The notes beneath the pieces are model-generated. The model made no database searches. It was given only the letters and a program-made list of their open reading frames with translations, and was not told the DNA's origin. 64,000 nt of DNA from Alcanivorax sp. S71-1-4 (GTDB taxonomy: Bacteria; Pseudomonadota; Gammaproteobacteria; Pseudomonadales; Alcanivoracaceae): positions 124,001-188,000 of the forward strand of contig NZ_AQOR01000003.1 in NCBI RefSeq assembly GCF_009846755.1. Reading direction: 5' to 3'. Both the position numbers and the translations under genes were made by a program. Below, piece after piece: positions 18,324-30,559 of the stretch (position 1 is the stretch's first letter; each line of letters opens with the position of its first letter).

Positions 18324-18646
18324 GATGGAACTCTCTGGACGGGCTTGCCGGCAGGGCTTCCTGCCAGTCATTCGTTCTGTGAATGAGAATGCCGAGATTA
18401 TAATCAGGGCGAATTATGTCACTTGCCCCGGCACAGGTCACTTGACCCGTCAGGCCGCGTCAGCCGGTGGAATCCGCCCTCGGGCTTGGCCCCGGAGACG
18501 CCGCCAGAATGCGCTGCAGCCACACCATGATGCTAATCAGTACTGAGGCACGCTCCTGTTTGGGGTGTAGTATCATCGGGTTGGCATGCAGCACAGACTG
18601 CTATCATTATGATATTTAAGTGTTTTTGTCGGGAGGATGGAGTGTG
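18324..18646. promoter_or_regulatory. divergent lysR/amrZ intergenic region with palindromic operator candidate
   Basis: A 323-bp space without genes. The last 60 bp before amrZ are AT-rich. They hold a perfect 13-bp palindrome TATCATTATGATA (18602-18614) and a related half-site TATCAT (18571-18576). The spot is suitable for autoregulation of amrZ or control by the neighbouring LqsS/R system. A GGGAGGATGGAG tract precedes the amrZ start. Confidence 0.4.
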
Positions 18647-18994
18647 ATGGACAACAGAAAGGCATCCGTACAAACAAGACAAGAAGTGGAAAAATTCGTG
18701 GTGCGCCTGCCGAAAGGCATTCGCGGCATGATCTCGGAAATTTCCCGTATCAACCATCGCAGCATGAATTCGGAAATTGTTGCACGACTGGAAGAAAGTC
18801 TGGGCCTGTCGGCGCCGGTAGATGGCGTCAGCGAAGCCCCGCCGGAGCTGTACGCCGTCAATGGCGATCATCCGCGTCCGGACATGCAACTGACCGACGA
18901 ACAGACTGCCGCCCAGCAGGAAGAACGTCTGCTCGAGCGCTTCCGTCGTCTTTCCGGCGACCGTCGTCGCGCATTGCTGGAACTGCTGCGCTGA
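18647..18994 (+). CDS. amrZ: AmrZ/AlgZ-like ribbon-helix-helix regulator
   Basis: A 115-residue Arc-type DNA-binding protein. The segment EKFVVRLPKGIRGMISEI followed by HRSMNSEIVARLEESL is nearly identical in pattern to Pseudomonas AmrZ/AlgZ (beta strand FVVRLP, then helices with the RSMNSEI signature). The C-terminal ERLLERFRRLSGDRRRALLELL matches the AmrZ tetramerisation tail. Compared with AmrZ (about 108 residues) it has a slightly longer acidic linker. The ATG at 18647 follows a GGAG site. In Pseudomonas AmrZ controls alginate, motility and diguanylate cyclase genes; here it sits beside quorum-sensing and GGDEF genes, suggesting a similar job. A terminator follows it. Confidence 0.85.
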   Translation: MDNRKASVQTRQEVEKFVVRLPKGIRGMISEISRINHRSMNSEIVARLEESLGLSAPVDGVSEAPPELYAVNGDHPRPDMQLTDEQTAAQQEERLLERFRRLSGDRRRALLELLR

Positions 18995-19024
18995 TCCAGC
19001 GGGCAACCGCTTCAGTGCTTCACC

Positions 19025-19053
19025 AAGGCTGGCCAACAGGCCAGCCTTTTTAT
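19025..19053 (+). terminator. intrinsic terminator after amrZ
   Basis: A 10-bp perfect stem AAGGCTGGCC / GGCCAGCCTT with loop AACA is followed by a T-tract (TTTTTAT). It separates amrZ from lqsS, so the kinase gene needs read-through or a promoter in the 20 bp that follow. Confidence 0.85.
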
Positions 19054-19073
19054 GTCATGCGTGCCGATACCTG

Positions 19074-20360
19074 ATGATTGTCTCCCGTCTCAACCAGTCG
19101 ATCAGCGAAAGCGCACATTTTTCTCGCCACAATGCGCCCATGGTCGGCGTCCTTGGTCTGGTGAGCTTTCCGCTTTACTACTTCATCTGGCAGTTTGTCT
19201 TCCCGCAGCCGTATGAAAGCGTGTGGCTGCGTATCGGCGGCGTGCTGGTCTGTATCCCGCTGCTGTTCTATCGCCTGTGGCCGGCACGCATGCAGCGCTA
19301 TTTTGCCGGCTACTGGGTCTTTGCCCTGAGCTACGCCCTGCCGTTCTTCTTTACCTACATGCTGTTGCGCAACGACCTGTCGCTGGTCTGGAGCATGAGT
19401 ACCATGGCGGCGCTGTTCATGCTGGTGCTGGCCGTGTACGACTGGCTGCTGGTGATCTGCATTGCCGTACTCGGCTCGTTGCTGGGCTGGATGGCTTTCC
19501 TGCTGACGGCAGACAGCGCCGCTGCCTTTTCCGCCTACATGCAGCAATTGCCGATCTACGCGTTTGTGGTCATAGCCGGCAGCATCTTCAACTACACCGC
19601 GAATATGGTGAAGGAAGAAAAACTCAACGCCCACGCCGCCATTGGCCGCAATATCGCCCACGAGCTGCGTACGCCCCTGTCAGGCATGAAAGGCGCCACC
19701 TCCGGCCTGGTCCAATACCTGCCGCACCTGGTCACAGCACACCGCGCGGCCATGGAAGCCGGCCTGGACGTGCGCCGTATTCGCAGCACACGCCTGGACC
19801 AGCTCAGCGACGCGGCCAACCGTATCCAGGAAGAGATCGACTTTTCCCATACCATCATCGACATGCTGTTGCTCAGTGCCGGGCAGACCACCATCAAGCA
19901 GGACAACTTCCGCAATCACTCGATCAACGACACGATCCGCCGGGCGCTGGAACGGTACCCGTTCAAATCCGAGCGCGAGCGGCATCTGGTACAGTGGCAG
20001 GAAGGCGAGGACTTTGAATATTATGGGTCTGACCTTCTGGTGACGCATGTGCTGTTCAACCTGACCAAGAACGCCCTGCACAGTGTCATCAGCGCCGGCA
20101 AGGGTGTGATCCACATCAGCAGCAGCCGCGGCGTGGACACCAACCGGCTGATTTTCATGGACACCGGGCCGGGCATTCCGCGCGCCCAGGTGAAACATAT
20201 CTTCGACTACTTTTACACGTCGAAAACCGTTGATCAGGGTACCGGGCTCGGGCTGTCATTCTGCCGGCTGGTGATGCAGAGCCTGCACGGCGGCATCCGC
20301 TGCGAGTCCAGGCTCGGCGAATACACACTGTTCGAATTGTCTTTTCCCCGGGGTCGCTAA
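19074..20360 (+). CDS. lqsS: LqsS/CqsS-like membrane sensor histidine kinase
   Basis: A 428-residue kinase. The first 190 residues contain about six hydrophobic segments (VGVLGLVSFPLYYFIWQFVF, LRIGGVLVCIPLLFY, FALSYALPFFFTYML, and others), the layout of the alpha-hydroxyketone sensors CqsS and LqsS. The H-box is IGRNIAHELRTPLSG with His196. The ATPase domain has the N-box (LFNLTKNALHSV), G1 (DTGPGIP) and G2 (GTGLGLSFC). There is no fused receiver, as in LqsS and unlike Vibrio CqsS. The stop is 2 nt from lqsR and the autoinducer synthase converges from the other side, which supports ligand sensing of an LAI-1/CAI-1-type molecule. The start lacks a clear ribosome site. Confidence 0.82.
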   Translation: MIVSRLNQSISESAHFSRHNAPMVGVLGLVSFPLYYFIWQFVFPQPYESVWLRIGGVLVCIPLLFYRLWPARMQRYFAGYWVFALSYALPFFFTYMLLRNDLSLVWSMSTMAALFMLVLAVYDWLLVICIAVLGSLLGWMAFLLTADSAAAFSAYMQQLPIYAFVVIAGSIFNYTANMVKEEKLNAHAAIGRNIAHELRTPLSGMKGATSGLVQYLPHLVTAHRAAMEAGLDVRRIRSTRLDQLSDAANRIQEEIDFSHTIIDMLLLSAGQTTIKQDNFRNHSINDTIRRALERYPFKSERERHLVQWQEGEDFEYYGSDLLVTHVLFNLTKNALHSVISAGKGVIHISSSRGVDTNRLIFMDTGPGIPRAQVKHIFDYFYTSKTVDQGTGLGLSFCRLVMQSLHGGIRCESRLGEYTLFELSFPRGR

Positions 20361-20362
20361 TC

Positions 20363-21373
20363 ATGTTGAAGCCTGTCATTCAGCCCTATTTTCACCCCAC
20401 CACCGTGGTGATGGTGGATGACAACGAACGGTTTCTCGATAATTTCAGCCTGCAGCTGGATGAGAAACTGGCCTGCGTCTTTTATTCCTCGGCGGTGGAA
20501 TGTCTGGCGATGCTCAACGGCCGTGCCAAGCGCACGCCGCTGGACCAGCGCTGCTTCTCCTACTACCAGCAGCCGTCCAATACCGCTTCGAACCGGGTGA
20601 TCCGGCTGGACCTGACTCTGATCGAGCAGGAGATCAGCAACCCGGAGCGCTTCCGCGACATTTCCGTGGTGGTGGTCGACTACGACATGCCGGAGATGAC
20701 CGGCCTGGAGTTCTGCCAGCGCATTCGCAACCACCGCATCAAGAAAATCCTGCTGACCGGCGTGGCGGACGAAAAGATCGCCGTGGAAGCCTTCAATGCC
20801 GGCATCATTGATCACTTCATGATGAAGAGCGATCCGCAGATCACGATGCGCATCAACAAGACCATCAATGACCTGCAGCGGCGTTACTTCTCCGAGATTT
20901 CCTCGCTGATCCAGAGCACGCTGGCACTGGAAGCGCCAGACTTCCTCTACGATGGCGACTTCATCCGCTATTTCTTCGATCTGGTCACCCGGCACCATGT
21001 CGCCGAGTACTACTACGTCGAAGACCCCACCGGTTTTCTGATGGTGAGCGAAACCGGCCAGCTCTGGCGCCTGGTGGTCTACAGCGAAACCGACCTGCAA
21101 CGCACCCTGTTCAACCTGCGCGGCCTGAAGCCGCCGGCGGCTCTGATGAAACGCATTTCGTCCGGCAAGGCGGTGCCGTGGCTGTGGGCATCACCGGACG
21201 AATTCGACGAGGACGAGGATTTCTTCTGGGACGATTACGTCCATGCAGCGACGCGGGTCAGTGGCGAGCAGACCTGGTTCTGTGCGCTGGTGGAAAGCCC
21301 ACCGGCAGACATTGAATACGACAGCGAGACCTCCAGCTACATGGCGTACCTGGAAGAACTCGACAAGCAGTAA
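20363..21373 (+). CDS. lqsR: LqsR-like response regulator
   Basis: A 336-residue response regulator. The acidic pair DD lies at 19-20, but the phospho-acceptor pattern DYDMPEMTG places the Asp at about 106, about 50 residues later than in ordinary receivers. An insertion (about 52-96) sits between the first helix and the beta-3 strand. Legionella LqsR has the same unusual spacing, with its acceptor near 108. The conserved Thr and Lys follow (ILLTGVAD, MMKSD). The C-terminal 190 residues are acidic and carry no known DNA-binding motif (PDEFDEDEDFFWDDYV), again as in LqsR. It is co-transcribed with lqsS and convergent with lqsA. Confidence 0.82.
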   Translation: MLKPVIQPYFHPTTVVMVDDNERFLDNFSLQLDEKLACVFYSSAVECLAMLNGRAKRTPLDQRCFSYYQQPSNTASNRVIRLDLTLIEQEISNPERFRDISVVVVDYDMPEMTGLEFCQRIRNHRIKKILLTGVADEKIAVEAFNAGIIDHFMMKSDPQITMRINKTINDLQRRYFSEISSLIQSTLALEAPDFLYDGDFIRYFFDLVTRHHVAEYYYVEDPTGFLMVSETGQLWRLVVYSETDLQRTLFNLRGLKPPAALMKRISSGKAVPWLWASPDEFDEDEDFFWDDYVHAATRVSGEQTWFCALVESPPADIEYDSETSSYMAYLEELDKQ

Positions 21374-21416
21374 GCCCTTCAGCATAGCTCTGCCGCCCGA
21401 ACTGCGGCGGCCGGAC

Positions 21417-21464
21417 CCAGGGAAAGTGCCCGGAAAAGCCGAGGCTTTTCCAGGCCTTCCCTGG
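21417..21464. terminator. bidirectional hairpin between lqsR and lqsA
   Basis: A long imperfect stem: outer CCAGGGAA (21417-21424) pairs with TTCCCTGG (21457-21464). It encloses a perfect inner hairpin GGAAAAGCC-GA-GGCTTTTCC (21432-21451). It lies between the convergent lqsR and lqsA genes and probably ends transcripts from both sides. There is no long T-tract outside the stem. Confidence 0.55.
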
Positions 21465-21481
21465 CTCAGGCCCGGGGTCTA

Positions 21482-22741
21482 TCAGCCGACAGCACGCTGA
21501 CGTGCGCCCACGTCACGGTGCAGACGCCGGGTCGACGCCCAGTCCCACATACCCACTTCATCACGAATCTCCGCGCACACATCAAGCACATGCCCGACCT
21601 GATTGAGCGTCAGGCCGGCGTTGATGCTCAGGCGAATCATCGAGCGGTTCTTGGCGGTCGCGGGGGCACAGAACACCGAGCCGAACACGTCGCGCTCCTC
21701 CAGCGCCTCGCGCAGTTTCAGGGTCAGGTTCTCCGGCCCGGCTTCCAGCGAGATGATCTGCGACTGGCTGGCCGAGACGTTGTAGCCCAGTTCGGTCAGA
21801 CCGTTGCGCAGGAAATCAGCGTTCATCCGCATTGCCTCACGCCGCCAGCCATCACGAATGATGATATCCAGCGTTTTGTCGAGACCGGCGATTTCATACG
21901 GCAGCAGGCAGGAACTGAAAATCGCGGTTCGCGCGGTGCACCAGAAGTACTCCTCGAAGGTCTTGCTGCAGAGGATAATGCCGGCACGCCCGGAAAACGC
22001 CTTGGCCAGGCTGGCCGTCACAAAATGCACCCGGTCATTCAGACCATATTCGCGCACCATGCCACTGCCAAACGGCCCATGCGTCCCCAGAGAGTGGGAT
22101 TCATCGACGATGATCAGGCAGCCGAATTCGGTGGCCACATCCACCACCCCCTCCAGCTCGCACAGCGCGCCCATGGTGCTGTACACCGAGTCCACGCAGA
22201 CGATGCCCTGGCCGTACGTCTTCAGCTGCCGCCGCAGGTGCTCCAGGTCGTTATGGCGGAATGGCCGCACCTGGGCGCCGGCGCTGATCACCCCTTCCCA
22301 CATGGAAGCGTGGGCGTTCATATCCATGTAGACCGGCACGCCGTCGCTCGCCAGTACCTGGATCAGCCCGACATTGGCGGCGTACCCGGACTGCGCCAGG
22401 ATCGACGATTCATAGCCGGTGTAATCCGCCATGCGCCGCTCGAACCGGCGCTGGTGGTTGTCACCGCGCAGGAACGAACCGGACATCAGCACGCTTTGGG
22501 TATCGCCCAGCAGACAGTCCACCTGCGCCTTCACGATTTCCTCGTGTCCGGCAATGCTCAGATAGTCGTTGCTCAACAACTGGATCGACTGCCGGTCAGG
22601 AATGCGACCCCGGAGGATATGCTTGCCCCCCCACAGCTTCCCCCACCGCTCCAGGAAAAATTCATCCATACGGCGTTTCAGAAAATCCGGCATCTCGGCG
22701 ATTTTCGTCTGTACGGACAGTTCGTTGAGTTTGATATTCAT
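21482..22741 (-). CDS. lqsA: LqsA/CqsA-like alpha-hydroxyketone autoinducer synthase
   Basis: A 419-residue PLP enzyme of the alpha-oxoamine synthase family, which condenses an acyl-CoA with an amino-acid-derived donor. CqsA/LqsA members make the quorum signals CAI-1/LAI-1. Visible features are LLSNDYLSIAGHEEIV, the substrate loop GSFLRGDNHQRRFERRMADYTG, DESHSLGTHGPFGSGM (PLP-stacking His and Asp) and the Schiff-base Lys in TASLAKAFSGRAG. The SLAKAF and FLRGDN patterns, the lack of biotin/haem neighbours and the convergent LqsS/LqsR pair favour CqsA/LqsA over KBL, BioF or HemA. The start has a TCGGAGA site 8 nt upstream. Confidence 0.85.
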   Translation of the reverse strand: MNIKLNELSVQTKIAEMPDFLKRRMDEFFLERWGKLWGGKHILRGRIPDRQSIQLLSNDYLSIAGHEEIVKAQVDCLLGDTQSVLMSGSFLRGDNHQRRFERRMADYTGYESSILAQSGYAANVGLIQVLASDGVPVYMDMNAHASMWEGVISAGAQVRPFRHNDLEHLRRQLKTYGQGIVCVDSVYSTMGALCELEGVVDVATEFGCLIIVDESHSLGTHGPFGSGMVREYGLNDRVHFVTASLAKAFSGRAGIILCSKTFEEYFWCTARTAIFSSCLLPYEIAGLDKTLDIIIRDGWRREAMRMNADFLRNGLTELGYNVSASQSQIISLEAGPENLTLKLREALEERDVFGSVFCAPATAKNRSMIRLSINAGLTLNQVGHVLDVCAEIRDEVGMWDWASTRRLHRDVGARQRAVG

Positions 22742-23311
22742 GCATTTGTCTCCGATTAATACTGATTTGGTTTATCAGCAACACGTCATGGCTTGCTGAT
22801 GGCAGAACGTGACGCGCTATGTTTGTTTTTTCACGCCACGTTTCTAAGATAGAGCAAAGGTGATGGCTCTTTTACATCCGCTGATATCGAACGAATGTGA
22901 GGCAAAGGCTGCAAAAAACAGGTCAGATATCGGCCTGATATCAAGCTGATTGTCTTTTGATACCCAGGGATTTTTTTGTTTTTGAGGATCGCGAGAGAAC
23001 GCCGCAACACGCAGCATAAAAACCACTTTTCGACGATGTTTTTCTGACAGAGAAATTTCTCCGCACAGCAAAACCTGAATGCCATTCAGCGGTCATGTGT
23101 AAACTCTATGACCGTTCACTGCCCCGCCATCGGGCAGGGAGGCCGGAACAGGGCAGCGTCTCTTTCGGCCACCATGATTGCAGAATGCCGTCACAGCCTG
23201 TCGGCCAGCCGCGCCCGGCAACTGGTGGCGGCCTGCCCGCCGGTGGTAATCTATTGAGCCGCAAGGGGTTGTTTGCGCTACCCGGGACCCACCGGGACGT
23301 CAGGGGCAGGG
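22742..23311. promoter_or_regulatory. AT-rich divergent region between lqsA and diguanylate cyclase gene
   Basis: A 570-bp stretch with no convincing gene. The part 22742-23095 is clearly AT-richer than the surroundings. It contains an inverted repeat ATCAGCAA-(11 nt)-TTGCTGAT at 22774-22800, just upstream of lqsA. It also holds GATATC at 22926-22931, the palindrome TGATATCA at 22936-22943 and TTTGATAC at 22956-22963. These share TATCA/TGATA with the palindrome ahead of amrZ. An 84-codon leftward frame (22831-23085) has atypical composition and no ribosome site. Confidence 0.4.
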
Positions 23312-24547
23312 ATGAACAGTCAGCAGGCAGTACAAGAAGACCAGTCATTACCCAATGGACGCGACCTGGCCCTGCCGTGGCACCTGACGTTGCCGGCACG
23401 GCTGGAAAGCGCCTTCCGTGAACAGTTCCGCGACGATGCCGCCCGGCTGATCCCCGCTGCCACCATTCTGATGCTACTGGTGTATCTCGTGGCCTTTGTG
23501 GTCGAGCACCATGTGGCCCCGCAAGCCACCGAGATCAGTTGGCGGCCGCGTCTGCTGGCGGCCATGGCGACAGTCGGGGTGCTGCTGGCAAGCCGCCATG
23601 CCCTGCGCTGGCTGCAACCGGCAGTGGCCGGCATGGCACTGGTGTCGGCCTGCATCCACCTGTACCTGGGGCTCAAGGTCGACCATCCGCTGCAGGATGC
23701 CTACTTCTATGTCCCGTTCCTGGCCATCCTGTTGCTCGGCAGCCTGTTTCGCATTCAGCTCTACTGGGCGTTGCCCACCAGCCTGGCCATCCTCGGTGCG
23801 CTGGCGGCGACCCTGTTTGGCCTCAGCCACCTCAGCTATGCCGAAGCACTGGTGATTACCGCTTTTACTACCTGCGCCACGGTCATGAGCCTGTTCGGCC
23901 AGTATTTCTTTGAGCGTCTGCAAAGGCAGCATTTCCTTTCCGACCGGGTACTGCATCTGCACCGCAGCGAACTGCATGCCGCCAACCGGTCCCTGGAAAG
24001 CCAGGCCACCGAGGATGGCCTGACCGGCGCCGTCAACCGGCGAGGCATGGACGTGCGCCTGAGCAACCTGCTGCACAATATGCAGCACCAGGCGCGCGGC
24101 GCCCCGGACAGCGTTGCCGTGCTGCTGTTCGATATCGACTACTTCAAGCAATACAACGACACCTATGGCCACCAGGCCGGTGATGAATGCCTGAAAGCGG
24201 TCGCCGAGGTGCCCAAGGCCATGGTGCAGCGGGCCACCGACTTCGTCGCCCGCTACGGCGGCGAGGAGTTCGTGATCGTGCTCGGCGGCACCCGGTTGCG
24301 AGACGCGCTGGTGTTTGCCGAACGCATGCGCGCCCGCATCGAACGGCTCGGCATCCCGCACCGCAATTCAAAAAGCAACAGCGTGGTCACCATCAGTATC
24401 GGCGTGGCCTGTACCGCCGAAGGCGTCGACTCCGCAGAGCAACTGATCCACCTGGCCGACGAAGCGCTCTATCAGGCCAAGGGCGCCGGCCGCAACCGTG
24501 TCGCCTGCGTCGATGAAGACGGTTCGGTAAGGGTGCTCTCTCCATGA
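23312..24547 (+). CDS. membrane diguanylate cyclase (active-looking GGEEF)
   Basis: A 411-residue protein from the ATG at 23312, which follows a CAGGGGCAGGG ribosome site. Residues 45-210 contain about six hydrophobic segments (IPAATILMLLVYLVAFVV, LLAAMATVGVLLASRHAL, AILLLGSLFRI and others). The C-terminal GGDEF domain (about 235-405) carries FDIDYFKQYNDTYGHQAGD, the signature RYGGEEF (316-320) and an inhibitory-site R-x-x-D (RATD) five residues before it, so c-di-GMP synthesis with product feedback is expected. The 3' end overlaps the next gene by 4 nt. It lies divergent from lqsA, suggesting that the signal system and c-di-GMP are connected. Confidence 0.9.
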   Translation: MNSQQAVQEDQSLPNGRDLALPWHLTLPARLESAFREQFRDDAARLIPAATILMLLVYLVAFVVEHHVAPQATEISWRPRLLAAMATVGVLLASRHALRWLQPAVAGMALVSACIHLYLGLKVDHPLQDAYFYVPFLAILLLGSLFRIQLYWALPTSLAILGALAATLFGLSHLSYAEALVITAFTTCATVMSLFGQYFFERLQRQHFLSDRVLHLHRSELHAANRSLESQATEDGLTGAVNRRGMDVRLSNLLHNMQHQARGAPDSVAVLLFDIDYFKQYNDTYGHQAGDECLKAVAEVPKAMVQRATDFVARYGGEEFVIVLGGTRLRDALVFAERMRARIERLGIPHRNSKSNSVVTISIGVACTAEGVDSAEQLIHLADEALYQAKGAGRNRVACVDEDGSVRVLSP

Positions 24548-25788
24548 CGACACTGCCCGGGAAGGCCCCTGCGCAGCACCGCCCAGCCCCCGACACGCCG
24601 GTGGCACAACTCGACCGCCTTAACGCCTTGCTGCACCGCCCTCTCTGGCAACTGCGCTTCCCGACCAGCCTGGAACAGGCCTTCTGGCATCGCCAGCACG
24701 CAGCCCAGGTGCTGGCCACCCGGATCGGTGTCCTGGTGGCGATCCCCTTGTATGCCATCACCACGCTGATTGAATGGCGCACAGACCTGGACCTGCTGCG
24801 TATCACCCTGCCGGCGCGGGCGCTGGTGACCGGCGTGTTGCTGCTGGTGGGCCTGCTGCTGAGTTGCACCCTGGCCCGTCGCCATGTGGCACTCATGGTG
24901 CCGCTGGTGGTCCTGCTGATGAACGGGTTGCAACTGTATATCTGCCGTTTCAGCGCGCCGGTTTACCAGACCATGACGCTGCTGTGGATGCTGCTGCCGC
25001 TGACGTTCATGAGCACCGTGTCGCGCGTGCCTTTTCGCTGTGCGCTGACCGTGGCGCTGGGTTCGGCCGGCGGTTTTCTGGTCTGCGCCGTCGGTTTCTC
25101 GGCCCTGCAGGGCATGCAGCTTTACCACACCACGTTTTTCTTTCTCTCGTTCATCCTGATCCTGCTGCTGAGCCATTTCTTCAACGAGCGGTTGCAGCGC
25201 CAGCGTTTCCTGCAGGCCAGCCTGCTGAACCTGCACCGGCGGGGCCTGTATCCGTCCCTGGACCCCGGCCAGCCGGACGTGCTGCAACCGGACCAGGAAC
25301 TTGGCGTGGTCAGCCGCACCGCACTGGATCAGCGGCTGCGCAACCACTTTGCCTATCATCAGCCGCCACGTGTCGCTGTGGTGATCTGCACGCTGGATCA
25401 CTTCGACGCACTGGAGGCCACCTACAGCCAACAGGAAGCGCTGTTCTGCCTGGCCACCGTGGCACGCACCGCGCAACGGATCGTGGCAAGCAGCGGCGAC
25501 TTCGTGGCCCGGCGCGGCGACCGTTCGCTGGCACTGGTGCTGGAAGGAGGCAATGGTTTCGATGCCCTGCACCTGGCCGAGCGGCTGCGCCGGCAGGTGG
25601 AGGCGATGGGCATTCCGCACTTCGGCAGCCCGCACCAGATCGTGACGCTCAGTTGTGGCGTGGCGGCTGCGGAGGGCCTGCGGGAACCCAGTGCGGATTC
25701 ACTGCTGCAGGCCGCCGACCAGGCGCTGTCACACGCGCTGGCAGCCGGCGGCAATCGCAGCGAAGCACACCGGCCGGGGAACCGGTGA
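24544..25788 (+). CDS. membrane protein with degenerate GGDEF domain
   Basis: A 414-residue paralogue of the preceding cyclase: same size, six hydrophobic segments in the first 215 residues and the same juxtamembrane pattern (HFFNERLQRQRFLQASLLNLHRR versus FFERLQRQHFLSDRVLHLHR). The catalytic loop is lost: GGEEF is replaced by GDRSL (325-329), the metal Asp in FDID is replaced in ICTLDHFDALEATY, and the RxxD inhibitory site has become SSGD. It cannot be an ordinary cyclase. It probably acts as a receptor, a regulator or a heterodimer partner of its neighbour. ATGA overlap couples translation. Confidence 0.85.
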   Translation: MTTLPGKAPAQHRPAPDTPVAQLDRLNALLHRPLWQLRFPTSLEQAFWHRQHAAQVLATRIGVLVAIPLYAITTLIEWRTDLDLLRITLPARALVTGVLLLVGLLLSCTLARRHVALMVPLVVLLMNGLQLYICRFSAPVYQTMTLLWMLLPLTFMSTVSRVPFRCALTVALGSAGGFLVCAVGFSALQGMQLYHTTFFFLSFILILLLSHFFNERLQRQRFLQASLLNLHRRGLYPSLDPGQPDVLQPDQELGVVSRTALDQRLRNHFAYHQPPRVAVVICTLDHFDALEATYSQQEALFCLATVARTAQRIVASSGDFVARRGDRSLALVLEGGNGFDALHLAERLRRQVEAMGIPHFGSPHQIVTLSCGVAAAEGLREPSADSLLQAADQALSHALAAGGNRSEAHRPGNR

Positions 25789-25808: not shown

Positions 25809-26630
25809 TCAGCGTGATGGCATGGGGCCGACCACCGTGGTCGGGTCCAGCCGCTCCTGGAACCAGTTGATGCGCCAGTCCAGATGGGGGCCGGTCGCGC
25901 GTCCGGTCGCGCCGACACGGGCGACGGCCTGCCCCTGTGTCACCTCATCGCCTGCCTGCACCAGCATTTCGCTCAGATGAATGAACGTGGTCGAGACACC
26001 GTAGCCGTGGTCTATGATCAGGGTGCCGCCGGAATAGAACATGTCGTCATGCACCAGCGTCACCACGCCGCTCGCCGGCGCCACCACCGGCGTCCCGGTG
26101 GGCGCGGCGATGTCCAGGCCCAGGTGCGGGCTGCCGGGCACACCGTTGTAGACACGCTGGCTGCCGTACACACCACTGATGCGGCCGGTCAGCGGCCAGA
26201 TGAAATCGCCGGCGAAAAAATCCAGCCTGCTGTCGGTGTCACGCGCCTTGCGCACCTGCGCCGTTTCTTCCCGGATGCGCGCCAGCACTTCCGGTGGTGG
26301 CGGGTCCACCGTGCGTTGCGGCACCCCCTCAATGCGCTGGATATTCCATTCCCGCGGCGACAGCGGCAGACGGACCTGTTCTTCGCGCGCGCCCCGCTTC
26401 AGCCGCAACACCGCCTCGCCCTCTGCGTCGCGCCCGAAGCCGAACGGCACCTGGCCCGCCGGGCTGACACGCAATGGCGTATCGCCCAGCCACACCTGCG
26501 TACCCGGCACCACCTCCGCCCGTAGCAGGGCGCCGGGCGCCGGGTCACCATGCAAGGTGATCAGCAGGGAATCCGCCGCCTGGGCGGCCACAGACAACAA
26601 CAGACACAGACTACAGATAAGAACTCGCAT
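25809..26630 (-). CDS. M23-family peptidase (LytM domain)
   Basis: A 273-residue exported protein with a signal peptide (MRVLICSLCLLLSVAAQAA), an N-terminal beta domain, and a C-terminal M23 endopeptidase domain. The zinc site is intact: HLGLD (His169, Asp173), His218 in FIHLS and HLDW (His249). It probably cleaves peptidoglycan cross-links or regulates amidases. It starts within the last 20 nt of the HD-GYP gene, so it is coupled to it; the ATG at 26630 or the GTG at 26633 may serve. It converges on the degenerate GGDEF gene. Confidence 0.9.
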   Translation of the reverse strand: MRVLICSLCLLLSVAAQAADSLLITLHGDPAPGALLRAEVVPGTQVWLGDTPLRVSPAGQVPFGFGRDAEGEAVLRLKRGAREEQVRLPLSPREWNIQRIEGVPQRTVDPPPPEVLARIREETAQVRKARDTDSRLDFFAGDFIWPLTGRISGVYGSQRVYNGVPGSPHLGLDIAAPTGTPVVAPASGVVTLVHDDMFYSGGTLIIDHGYGVSTTFIHLSEMLVQAGDEVTQGQAVARVGATGRATGPHLDWRINWFQERLDPTTVVGPMPSR

Positions 26631-28176
26631 CACTCACATCCAGTTGCGCCGGGTCGAGGATCTGGCGCGCATAGTCTTCCCAGACCCGGGCGCGGACAAA
26701 CAGTTCATACAGCCCCGCGTCGATATGCCGGGCATCGCGCATGCGTCGCAGGATACCCAGCGCTTCGGAAATTTTCATCGGTGACTTGTAAGGGCGGTCG
26801 TGCGCAGTGAGCGCCTCGAACACATCAGCGATCGCCATCATCCGCGCCGGCAGCGACATCTGCTCGCCGGTCAGGCCACGCGGAAAACCCGTGCCGTCGA
26901 TACGCTCGTGATGGCCGCCAGCGTATTCCGGCACCCGGCGCAGCTTGCGCGGGAACGGCAGTGATTCGAGCATGTCCAGCGTGACCTGGATATGGTTGTT
27001 GATGACGTCCCGTTCAGCAGGTGTCAGCGTACCCCTGACGATACACAGCGTGGCCACCTCCTCATCACTGAGCAGCGGTTGCAGCACACCGTCGGCATCA
27101 CGCCACTCGCGCATGGCGATCTCGCGGACGCGCTGCTGGTCGGCCTCGGCCATGCGCTCGCTGCCGACATTGATGCGGCGCAAGAACGCCAGTTCGTCTG
27201 CCAGCGTTTCCAGCGTACGTGCCAGCACCGCTGTCAGGGTCTCTTCTGCCTGCGGCGCCGCCGCCACGGCGGCAGCGCACTCCGCCTGATACTGCGCGCG
27301 CAGCACGGCAAAGCGCGTCGCCACCTGCTCAATGCGGTCATGCAGGGTGTGCAGCTTGGTGGATTTGTCCAGCACCGAGTCCGGCGTGGTCAGCTTGCCA
27401 CAATCATGCAGCCAGGCGGCCACACGCAGTTCATACCACTCATCGTCGTTCAGGCTGAAGTCAGCGTAGCGCTGCTGGTCCTCGCAGGCGGCCCGGGCCA
27501 GCAGTTCGGTCAGCAACGGCACCCGCTGGCAGTGGCCGGAGGTGTGCGAGCTTTTCTCGTCCACGGCGCGCGCAATCACCTTGATAAAGGCATCGAGCAA
27601 CTGCTCCATCTCCTGCACCAGCAGCACATTATGCAGGGCGATGGCGGCGTAATTGGCCACGCCGGAGACCAGCGCCAGAAGACGCGGCGGGAAATCCGTC
27701 ACTTCACCGGTCTCGCCGTCCCGGGCATTGAACAGCTGCAACACGCCGAGCACTTCGCGACCATGATTGAGCAGTGGCACCACCAGGCTGTTCTCCACCT
27801 GATCACGCATGTCCGGCGGCACCCCCGCCAGTTCGCCCGGCTGTGGACCGACCAGCACTTCGCCGCTGAGCACCGCGCGGGCAGCAGGATGCGAGCTGCC
27901 TGCGCCCACCGGCACCGGCGCCGCCGTGACCGGCACACCGCCTGCGCCCCCCTGGCAGAGCACCAGGGCCGGCCAGCGCAGCAGCACGCACTCCAGTTGC
28001 GGTGCGCGCCCGCCGGCACCGTCGTCCAGCAGATACAACATGCCGCCGTCCGCCTGCGCCAGCAGGCGTGCTTCGTCGAGAATCACCTCACACAGGCGCA
28101 GCGTGTCACGCTGCATGGTGATGCGCTGCGCGACACGCAAAAGACGCTGATAATGCTGCGGGCTGAACTGGTCCAT
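26611..28176 (-). CDS. GAF and HD-GYP domain protein (c-di-GMP phosphodiesterase type)
   Basis: A 521-residue cytoplasmic protein from the ATG at 28176 (AGGATGG ribosome site). The open frame upstream is palindromic repeat sequence and is not coding. A GAF domain occupies about 15-190 (ALVSGVANYAAIALHNVLLVQEMEQLL at its end). The HD-GYP phosphodiesterase has HTSGH (211-215), the metal pair HD (257-258, WLHDCGKL), then HHERIDGTGFP and DRPYK. The signature reads GFP instead of GYP, a conservative change. An extra segment of about 80 residues (290-370) separates the HD and GYP halves. It likely degrades c-di-GMP in response to a GAF ligand and is the counterpart of the nearby cyclase. Confidence 0.88.
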   Translation of the reverse strand: MDQFSPQHYQRLLRVAQRITMQRDTLRLCEVILDEARLLAQADGGMLYLLDDGAGGRAPQLECVLLRWPALVLCQGGAGGVPVTAAPVPVGAGSSHPAARAVLSGEVLVGPQPGELAGVPPDMRDQVENSLVVPLLNHGREVLGVLQLFNARDGETGEVTDFPPRLLALVSGVANYAAIALHNVLLVQEMEQLLDAFIKVIARAVDEKSSHTSGHCQRVPLLTELLARAACEDQQRYADFSLNDDEWYELRVAAWLHDCGKLTTPDSVLDKSTKLHTLHDRIEQVATRFAVLRAQYQAECAAAVAAAPQAEETLTAVLARTLETLADELAFLRRINVGSERMAEADQQRVREIAMREWRDADGVLQPLLSDEEVATLCIVRGTLTPAERDVINNHIQVTLDMLESLPFPRKLRRVPEYAGGHHERIDGTGFPRGLTGEQMSLPARMMAIADVFEALTAHDRPYKSPMKISEALGILRRMRDARHIDAGLYELFVRARVWEDYARQILDPAQLDVSDASSYL

Positions 28177-28304
28177 GACGCCATCCTGGGCTGTAACTCG
28201 GGGCAGAATAGCCCCGGCATCAGGGGGCGCATAGCATCGCTTTGTTACTGCATGAGGGCAGCATGTAACCCTGCTGGCACCCTGCCAGCGCAGGCACTTT
28301 CCTT

Positions 28305-28569
28305 GGGAACCCCTGAATAGCTCCCCGGCATTTCTGGCTTTCCGGGCGGCTTGCGAACAAGGCGCAATTTTGAAGGCATAGCGTGCTACGTCGAGAAATT
28401 GCAACGCAGTGCGCAAGCCGCCCGGAAAGCCCCAAAGGGCGAGCGCTAGAGCATGCCCTGCCTGCGTTGCGCCGCTTGCCAAGGGCTACGGCCATTGGCG
28501 GCACGTCGCGCCTTGCCAGGACACGCTCTAGCGCTCGCAGAAGTGCCGGGGAGCTATTCAGGGGTTCCC
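28305..28569. repeat. 265-bp palindromic MITE-like element with two internal hairpins
   Basis: A perfect 26-bp inverted repeat forms the ends (28305-28330 and 28544-28569; begins GGGAACCCCTGAATAGC). Inside lie two adjacent hairpins. The first has a perfect 20-bp stem (28336-28355 with 28412-28431, GGCTTTCCGGGCGGCTTGCG). The second has an 11-bp stem GAGCGCTAGAG (28441-28451) with 28526-28536. Together they form a three-way junction. There is no coding capacity. It fills most of the 469-bp gap between the HD-GYP gene and thrS and could place promoter or RNA structure ahead of thrS. Confidence 0.85.
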
Positions 28570-28645: not shown

Positions 28646-30559
28646 ATGAGCATAGCGTACCGGCTGCCCGACGGGGCGGCCCTGGAATTTGAGCAGCCCG
28701 TGTCCGGCAGCGAGATCGCCGAACGCATCAGTAAAAAGCTGGCCAAACAGGCCCTGGCCGTAAAAGTGGATGGCCAGTTGCGGGACGTCTATCTGACCGT
28801 CCCGGCGGGCGCCACCGTCCAGATCATCACCCGTGAGGACGCCGATGCGCTGGAGCTGATCCGCCACGATGCCGCACACGTCATGGCCGAAGCCGTGCAG
28901 GAACTGTTCCCCGGCACCCAGGTCACCATCGGCCCGACCATCGAAAATGGCTTCTATTACGACTTCCACCGCGAGCAGCCGTTCACGCCGGAGGACCTCA
29001 AGGCCATCGAGAAGCGCATGCAGGATATCGTGCGCCGCAACGAAGAGATCCGCCGCGAAGTCTGGGACCGCGATGAGGCCATCGCCTTCTTCCTGGAAAA
29101 GGGCGAGACCTTCAAGGCCGAGATCATTCGCGAGCTGCCGGCAGGCGAGGACGTCAGCCTGTACCGCCAGGGCGACTTCATCGACCTGTGCCGTGGCCCG
29201 CACCTGCCCGCCACCAGCAAGCTCGGCGACGGCTTCAAGCTGACCAAAGTCGCCGGCGCCTACTGGCGCGGCGACAGCAACAATGCGCAACTGCAGCGCA
29301 TCTACGGCACCGCCTGGCGCGACAAGAACGAGCTGAACGATCACTTGAAACAGCTTGAGGAAGCCGCCAAGCGCGACCACCGCAAGCTGGGCCGCGAGAT
29401 GGACCTGTTCCACCAGCAGGAAGAAGCCCCCGGCATGGTGTTCTGGCACCCGCGCGGCTGGGCCATCTGGCAGAAGGTCGAGCAGTATGTGCGGCAGGTG
29501 TACCGCCAGAGCGGCTATCAGGAAGTGCGCGGGCCGCAGATCATGGACGTGAGCCTGTGGAAAAAATCCGGCCACTGGGACAACTACCAGGACAATATGT
29601 TCTTCACCGAGTCCGAGAAGCGCATCTACGCGGTGAAGCCGATGAACTGCCCGGGCCATGTGCAGATCTACAACGCTGCGCTGCACAGCTACCGTGACCT
29701 GCCGATCCGCTACGCGGAATTCGGCGGCTGCCACCGCAATGAGCCGTCCGGCGCGCTGCACGGCATCATGCGGGTACGCGCCTTCACCCAGGACGACGGC
29801 CATATTTTCTGTACCGAAGAACAGGTGCAGGAAGAAGTCACCGCCTTCCACCAGCAAGCCATGCAGGTGTACGCGAATTTCGGCTTCGAGAATATTTCCG
29901 TGAAGCTGGCACTGCGGCCGGAAAAACGCATCGGCACCGATGAGGCCTGGGACAAGGCCGAAGCCGGCCTGCGCGCCGCACTGGCCAGCGCCGGGGTGGA
30001 ATGGGAAGAAATGCCGGGCGAAGGCGCCTTCTACGGGCCAAAGATCGAGTATCACCTGAAGGATTCCATCGGCCGCTCCTGGCAGATGGGCACCGTGCAG
30101 TTCGATCCGATGATGCCGGAGCGGCTGGACGCCGAGTACGTGGATGAGCACTCCCAGCGCAAGCGCCCGATCATGCTGCACCGCGCCATCCTCGGCTCCA
30201 TGGAGCGTTTCATCGGCATCCTGATCGAACACCACGCCGGCCACCTGCCACTGTGGCTGGCGCCGGTGCCGGTGGTCATCGCCACCATCACCAATGCGGC
30301 CGACGATTACGCCTATCGCGTCAAGGCCGATCTGGAAGCCGCTGGCGTACGGGTGGAAATGGACCTGCGCAACGAGAAGATCGGCTACAAGGTGCGCGAG
30401 CACTCGTCCATGAAAGTGCCGGTGATCTTCGTCATCGGCGAGCAGGAAGCAAGCGACGAGAAGGTGGCGATTCGCCGCCTGGGCAGCCGCGACACCGAGG
30501 TCGTGAGCCTGGCCGAGGCGATCACACTGATGCAGGACGGCACCCGCACACCGGGTTGA
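28646..30559 (+). CDS. thrS: threonine--tRNA ligase
   Basis: ThrRS charges tRNA-Thr in the cytoplasm. The protein has 637 residues, the normal full length. Order: TGS domain (1-60, [24 protein letters not shown]), editing domain with [11 protein letters not shown] and the downstream Cys/His site (LCRGPHLP), and the class II catalytic core with motif 2 ([29 protein letters not shown]) and the zinc Cys in MNCPGH. The C-terminal anticodon-binding domain ([17 protein letters not shown] onward) is complete. It heads an operon with hisI and cysS rather than the common thrS-infC-rpmI-rplT order. Confidence 0.97.

Follow-up and report, generated by a model that had tools for sequence, protein, structure and literature searches.

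The window, a 64,000-nucleotide stretch of Alcanivorax sp. S71-1-4 (contig NZ_AQOR01000003.1, positions 124,001 to 188,000), contains lqsS, lqsR and lqsA, the genes of an Lqs-type alpha-hydroxyketone quorum-sensing system, preceded by a gene encoding an AmrZ-like ribbon-helix-helix protein (denoted RHH). Divergent from lqsA lies a gene encoding a diguanylate cyclase (denoted DGC). A first-pass annotation had recognized RHH and the three lqs genes; all four are intact and were confirmed at the positions it gave (Table 1). Family scores, together with conservation of the entire arrangement in 13 genomes of the same family, exclude chance. From the comparisons described here we consider it probable that in these bacteria an Lqs-type hydroxyketone quorum-sensing circuit is wired to an AmrZ-type regulator.

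Table 1. Genes and predicted sites of the RHH-lqs locus (window coordinates).
Feature	Position	Strand	Description
Predicted RHH operator, RHH promoter	18599..18617		TGCTATCATTATGATATTT; overlaps -10-like hexamer 30 bp before ATG
RHH (amrZ-like)	18647..18994	+	Arc-family ribbon-helix-helix regulator, 115 aa
Terminator-like hairpin between RHH and lqsS	19025..19048	+	10-bp stem followed by T run
lqsS	19074..20360	+	Sensor histidine kinase with six transmembrane (TM) segments, no receiver; H-box His196
lqsR	20363..21373	+	Response regulator, phospho-acceptor D106, no DNA-binding domain detected
lqsA	21482..22741	-	Pyridoxal phosphate (PLP)-dependent alpha-hydroxyketone autoinducer synthase, Schiff-base K247
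Predicted RHH operator, lqsA/DGC divergent intergenic region	22925..22943		AGATATCGGCCTGATATCA
Weaker operator-like site	23175..23193		TGATTGCAGAATGCCGTCA; ~120 bp before DGC start
DGC	23312..24547	+	Intact GGEEF and RxxD-type I-site

By sequence, LqsA belongs to the CqsA/LqsA alpha-hydroxyketone synthases. It scored 573.5 bits against the NCBI hydroxyketone-synthase model NF005526 (cut-off 428) and stayed under the cut-offs of the BioF, KBL and serine palmitoyltransferase models. Among solved structures, the CAI-1 synthase CqsA is the best match (PDB 3hqt, E 2.7e-105). The two motifs on which the synthase had been recognized, SLAKAF and SFLRGD, are both present, and K247 of the former aligns with the lysine of TASLAKTF in CqsA. 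A place among KBL, BioF or HemA had been named beforehand as refuting this assignment; the tree of 51 enzymes put LqsA inside the CqsA/LqsA clade, from which BioF/KBL split off at 100 support. Synthases of Vibrio-like loci with a hybrid CqsS (L087-L089, L094, L095, L098) share this clade.

Another view of the locus is that the enzyme makes some other alpha-amino or alpha-hydroxy ketone, or that the kinase senses something else, the locus then being no quorum-sensing circuit. Substrates are not readable from sequence, and JqsA of Janthinobacterium failed to complement a V. cholerae cqsA mutant (PMC3566124), indicating that products differ among members of the synthase family. The curated equivalog score and the position in the CqsA/LqsA clade nevertheless argue for a hydroxyketone product, as does the six-TM LqsS, whose gene adjoins lqsR and lqsA in all relatives with Lqs, and we consider this alternative very unlikely. 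One genome (G459) carries, in addition to an ordinary LqsA, a second, divergent synthase-like protein (L071:9455-10663) that scored 371 bits, under the family cut-off, with no LqsS nearby.

LqsS was described in the first-pass annotation as a six-TM kinase without receiver, and the domains bear this out. Hydropathy analysis detected six hydrophobic segments (residues 21-42, 50-68, 80-98, 115-133, 136-154 and 161-179), followed by HisKA, with His196 in the H-box, and HATPase_c; domain and motif searches of LqsS found no receiver. The whole of LqsR can be aligned with PDB 6sy9 (residues 29-355, E 6e-62), which we take to be LqsR of Legionella pneumophila, the record being titled only 'Response regulator'. 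Its receiver has the displaced phospho-acceptor Asp noted earlier: the acidic pair D19/D20 is followed by an insertion and then by D106, T132 and K155. D19, D20, D106 and K155 are invariant in all 78 aligned LqsR homologues, and T132 is found in 77 of them. No DNA-binding domain was recognised in LqsR, and the window protein lacks a GG(D/E)EF string. Its output domain may have a GGDEF-like fold, judging from the homology to 6sy9 and from PMC10653808, which describes LqsR-family regulators as a phospho-receiver joined to a degenerate cyclase-like output domain with no activity detected.

RHH, the sole Arc-family gene found in its 4.18-Mb genome, matches Pfam Arc (PF03869) with 56.9 bits (E 1.9e-15). 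Its best solved relative is AmrZ of P. aeruginosa (PDB 3qoq, E 4e-12), in keeping with the earlier assignment. The base-contacting residues K16, V18 and R20 align with K18, V20 and R22 of AmrZ; K18 and R22 are named in PMC3325190.

A true LqsA is encoded in 13 of the 46 genomes of the window family, spread over five genera, and is missing from the two largest ones. All 13 genomes show the order RHH-lqsS-lqsR> <lqsA, counting one (G044) whose locus is split over two contigs, and the loci are flanked by a LysR gene on one side and the diguanylate cyclase gene on the other. The convergence of lqsSR with lqsA and the absence of hdeD, read at first as distinctive, are both correct. We rejected them as a novelty since Lqs loci outside Legionella usually have this order; elsewhere lqsSR and lqsA often converge with no RHH present, and hdeD is restricted to L. 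pneumophila (PMC3376566).

RHH is also linked to lqsR in a second family of the same taxonomic order (f41), in which LqsR was detected in 37 of 151 genomes and 32 loci were read. In 29 of these loci RHH immediately precedes lqsSR or a solitary lqsR; two of the others are cut by contig ends, and the third (L217) is a real exception. In most of the 29 loci (20), RHH and lqsR stand without lqsS or lqsA in the stretch read. Two loci have RHH-lqsS-lqsR, one further such locus stops at a contig end, and six also carry lqsA, in one case just a fragment where the contig ends. Beyond these two families RHH was found beside none of ~35 LqsR loci, for many of which just 1.5 kb per side were read. All 43 LqsRs from both families together make up a single clade of the LqsR tree (96 support).

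In sister genera that lack Lqs, this RHH again lies between the LysR and cyclase genes that flank the lqs loci, its match ~90-160 bases away from that of the cyclase. The lqsSRA genes are cleanly absent at this spot, LqsR elsewhere in these genera not having been searched. Comparison with these empty sites initially favored insertion of the lqs genes into an ancestral amrZ-cyclase pair. We now consider loss more likely than insertion, since the second family shares the RHH-LqsR link and the LqsRs form one clade. The simplest history, on a tree that is unrooted, would be one origin of the RHH-LqsR link followed by losses of lqsS and lqsA, and of all three lqs genes in the genera without Lqs.

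Some further observations concern the distribution of these genes. A 99% complete genome (G176, L167:7111-9777) has RHH-lqsS-lqsR with no LqsA within the stretch read, and possibly belongs to a listener without a signal of its own. Another genome of the same class (G532; L245, L265) encodes five LqsR-type genes, and for many LqsR genes of the class the stretch read contains no LqsA. The thrS gene (28646-30559) was dropped as a species-tree marker, since it conflicts with other genes. Its history differs from that of its neighbors: thrS of G032 and G020 is 86-87% identical to the window gene and that of most other relatives ~70%, suggesting thrS exchange.

Dyads in RHH promoters yielded a 19-bp palindrome, TGAT(GG/AT)CA-N3-TG(CC/AT)ATCA, as predicted operator. 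Its GG form contains GGC-N5-GCC, the arrangement of AmrZ half-sites in the P. aeruginosa crystal (PMC3325190). With the plain pattern and up to 3 mismatches, the window contains only the sites at the RHH promoter and between lqsA and DGC (0.06 expected). We then used a held-out matrix trained solely on f41 RHH promoters, a hit being a score above the 99th percentile of shuffles (1% expected). Across the 64 kb, this matrix ranked the lqsA/DGC site best, the RHH-promoter site second and the weaker site before DGC fourth. Among the RHH promoters of the window family it detected 10 of 13 in genomes with Lqs and 8 of 13 in genomes without; among lqsA promoters it detected 12/13 and 6/6, both families being represented. 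At Lqs loci without RHH the same matrix yielded 1 hit in 28 lqsA promoters, none in 33 lqsS promoters and none in 38 lqsR promoters, and it detected none of 12 cyclase promoters of genomes lacking Lqs. Kinship among the genomes means that the held-out counts overstate the independent events, but the two families and the controls without RHH belong to separate lineages. The top site of the whole locus falls at the RHH or lqsA promoter in 12 of 12 loci (0.42 expected). The link to AmrZ, conserved in two families and accompanied by a shared predicted operator at the lqsA promoter, is much stronger than could be known when it was first noticed.

The own genome contains 26 sites, compared with 0 for the reversed pattern, so RHH looks like a global regulator with lqsA as one target. 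In 400 kb of a relative (G035) one further site was found. Sites were also predicted, for instance, at the promoter of a diguanylate cyclase gene in one relative and at a thioesterase gene beside a second kinase pair, described below.

The palindrome might instead belong to a regulator other than RHH. In line with this, many sites have GATATC in place of the GGC half-sites, although the base-contacting residues of RHH do not vary with the half-site type. Yet mixed sites that combine a GGC-type half with a GAT-type half are common, the palindrome core equals the known AmrZ site (PMC3325190), and the sites are found at RHH promoters whether or not Lqs is present and are missing from Lqs loci without RHH; we therefore regard another owner of the site as unlikely. 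The mixed half-sites reveal a single motif, and for this reason TGATATCA was rejected as an Lqs-specific site separate from that of AmrZ.

RHH could also be a housekeeping AmrZ and a chance neighbor, the lqs cassette being parked between amrZ and the cyclase gene with no functional tie. The lower GC content of the lqs genes (58-61%, compared with a window average of 64%), the many RHH sites elsewhere in the genome and the presence of RHH alone beside the cyclase in sister genera without Lqs all fit such a history. What makes it highly improbable in our view is that the predicted operator stands at the lqsA promoter in both families, that the RHH-LqsR pair is kept without lqsS and lqsA in f41, and that RHH-linked LqsRs form one clade.

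Several points weigh against a wired RHH-Lqs circuit with these operators. The motif was found post hoc, and the held-out tests came afterwards. The two main window sites are degenerate, departing from the TGATATCA form at 2 and 3 positions, and three relatives (L050, L051 and L054) have no good site at the RHH promoter. A looser IUPAC pattern gave five hits in 64 kb against a mean of 1.58 expected, a modest excess; three of the five fall in the lqsA/cyclase region. The terminator-like hairpin separates RHH from lqsS; it is weak, as such hits are no more frequent in this region than in shuffles. Finally, in an RHH tree built on a short alignment, Pseudomonas-family genes occupy a branch separate from the window RHH, and this tree does not establish that the two are strict orthologs in the case of P. 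aeruginosa AmrZ.

Taken together, we favor the following circuit. LqsA would join an acyl-CoA to an amino-acid-derived unit via PLP, producing a hydroxyketone precursor. LqsS would sense the resulting signal through its six-TM domain and transfer phosphate to or from D106 of LqsR. RHH would bind the 19-bp palindrome at its own promoter and in the lqsA/DGC intergenic region, and would repress or activate itself, lqsA and the cyclase gene. Binding at both places would set the level of RHH, signal production and probably cyclase expression; of the possible effects on its own gene, autorepression is favored because the site at the RHH promoter overlaps the -10-like hexamer and because AmrZ represses its own gene in P. 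aeruginosa. RHH is likely to be the DNA-binding arm of the LqsR pathway, given that LqsR has no recognisable DNA-binding domain and that RHH stays by lqsR when lqsS and lqsA are missing. A more specific proposal, which we offer tentatively as a possibility with the odds somewhat against it, is that RHH serves LqsR as its dedicated DNA-binding output: the phosphorylation state of LqsR would alter RHH activity at the 19-bp operators, for example through direct contact or through cyclic di-GMP (c-di-GMP).

The DGC fragment, searched from 23336 (the reading frame points to the ATG at 23312 as start), matched PF00990 with 161.7 bits and contains the motif RATDFVARYGGEEF. Directly after DGC lies a second gene for a GGDEF protein (24544-25788) with the degenerate signature RGDRS; among the compared loci it is present only in the window and in its sister G035. 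An HD-GYP-type (HD_5) protein with a GAF domain is encoded near the cyclases (26611-28482), making the neighborhood rich in c-di-GMP genes. Elsewhere in the own genome (L218:6301-10326; G000:C2, ~56-60 kb) we noticed a histidine kinase with seven TM segments followed by a receiver-kinase protein, a PhcS/PhcR-like pair. The kinase part of the latter is 45% identical to LqsS, and a 4HBT-type thioesterase gene lies alongside. A predicted RHH operator with one mismatch (L218:10433-10451) precedes the thioesterase gene, and a perfect one is found in the relative G036 (L285).

How LqsR-family regulators act is an open question, no activity having been detected for their cyclase-like output domain (PMC10653808). 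In the two families compared here, a transcription factor of a known class keeps its place next to LqsR, with a predicted operator at the synthase promoter and next to a diguanylate cyclase gene, which ties hydroxyketone quorum sensing concretely to AmrZ-type control and to c-di-GMP. Should RHH prove to be the output of LqsR, this would answer how an LqsR without DNA-binding domain alters gene expression in these bacteria. The locus further points to a signalling system in an Alcanivoracaceae-like family of the marine oil-degrader type. It had been proposed that an AmrZ-linked Lqs system in such an organism is undescribed. This holds for the coupling, as AmrZ or ribbon-helix-helix proteins together with LqsR were not found in our literature search, most subscription literature lying outside its scope; Alcanivorax is not mentioned in the Lqs literature found. 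Lqs outside Legionella is not new in itself, since lqs clusters have been published for many Proteobacteria (PMC3376566, PMC3566124, PMC10653808).

Among known systems, Vibrio Cqs has the same synthase family and a six-TM sensor, but CqsS is a hybrid kinase feeding LuxU/LuxO and there is no LqsR. PhcX of Ralstonia is likewise an LqsR-family regulator kept without LqsA and LqsS; it is linked to phc genes instead, and the portion of PMC10653808 at hand does not mention an RHH. Jqs of the non-pathogen Janthinobacterium sp. HH01 has adjacent genes for synthase, kinase and LqsR-type regulator, and its synthase gene is required for normal violacein production, whereas an RHH partner is not described there (PMC3566124). 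AmrZ of Pseudomonas (PDB 3qoq; PMC3325190, PMC3946381) shares with RHH the fold and the K-V-R base-contacting strand and, as far as the sites predicted here go, the GGC-N5-GCC core, an autoregulatory site and a link to a diguanylate cyclase. In P. aeruginosa AmrZ represses its own gene and a diguanylate cyclase (PMC3946381, PMC3325190); unlike RHH, it does not lie beside lqs genes in the Pseudomonas-family genomes read. Legionella pneumophila Lqs comprises the same three protein families, LqsA, LqsS and LqsR, including the displaced phospho-Asp and the missing DNA-binding domain of LqsR. The window locus differs from it in gene order, in lacking hdeD, and in having a linked AmrZ-type RHH with a predicted operator at the lqsA promoter. 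The components are known, and the coupling of RHH to Lqs is the new part.

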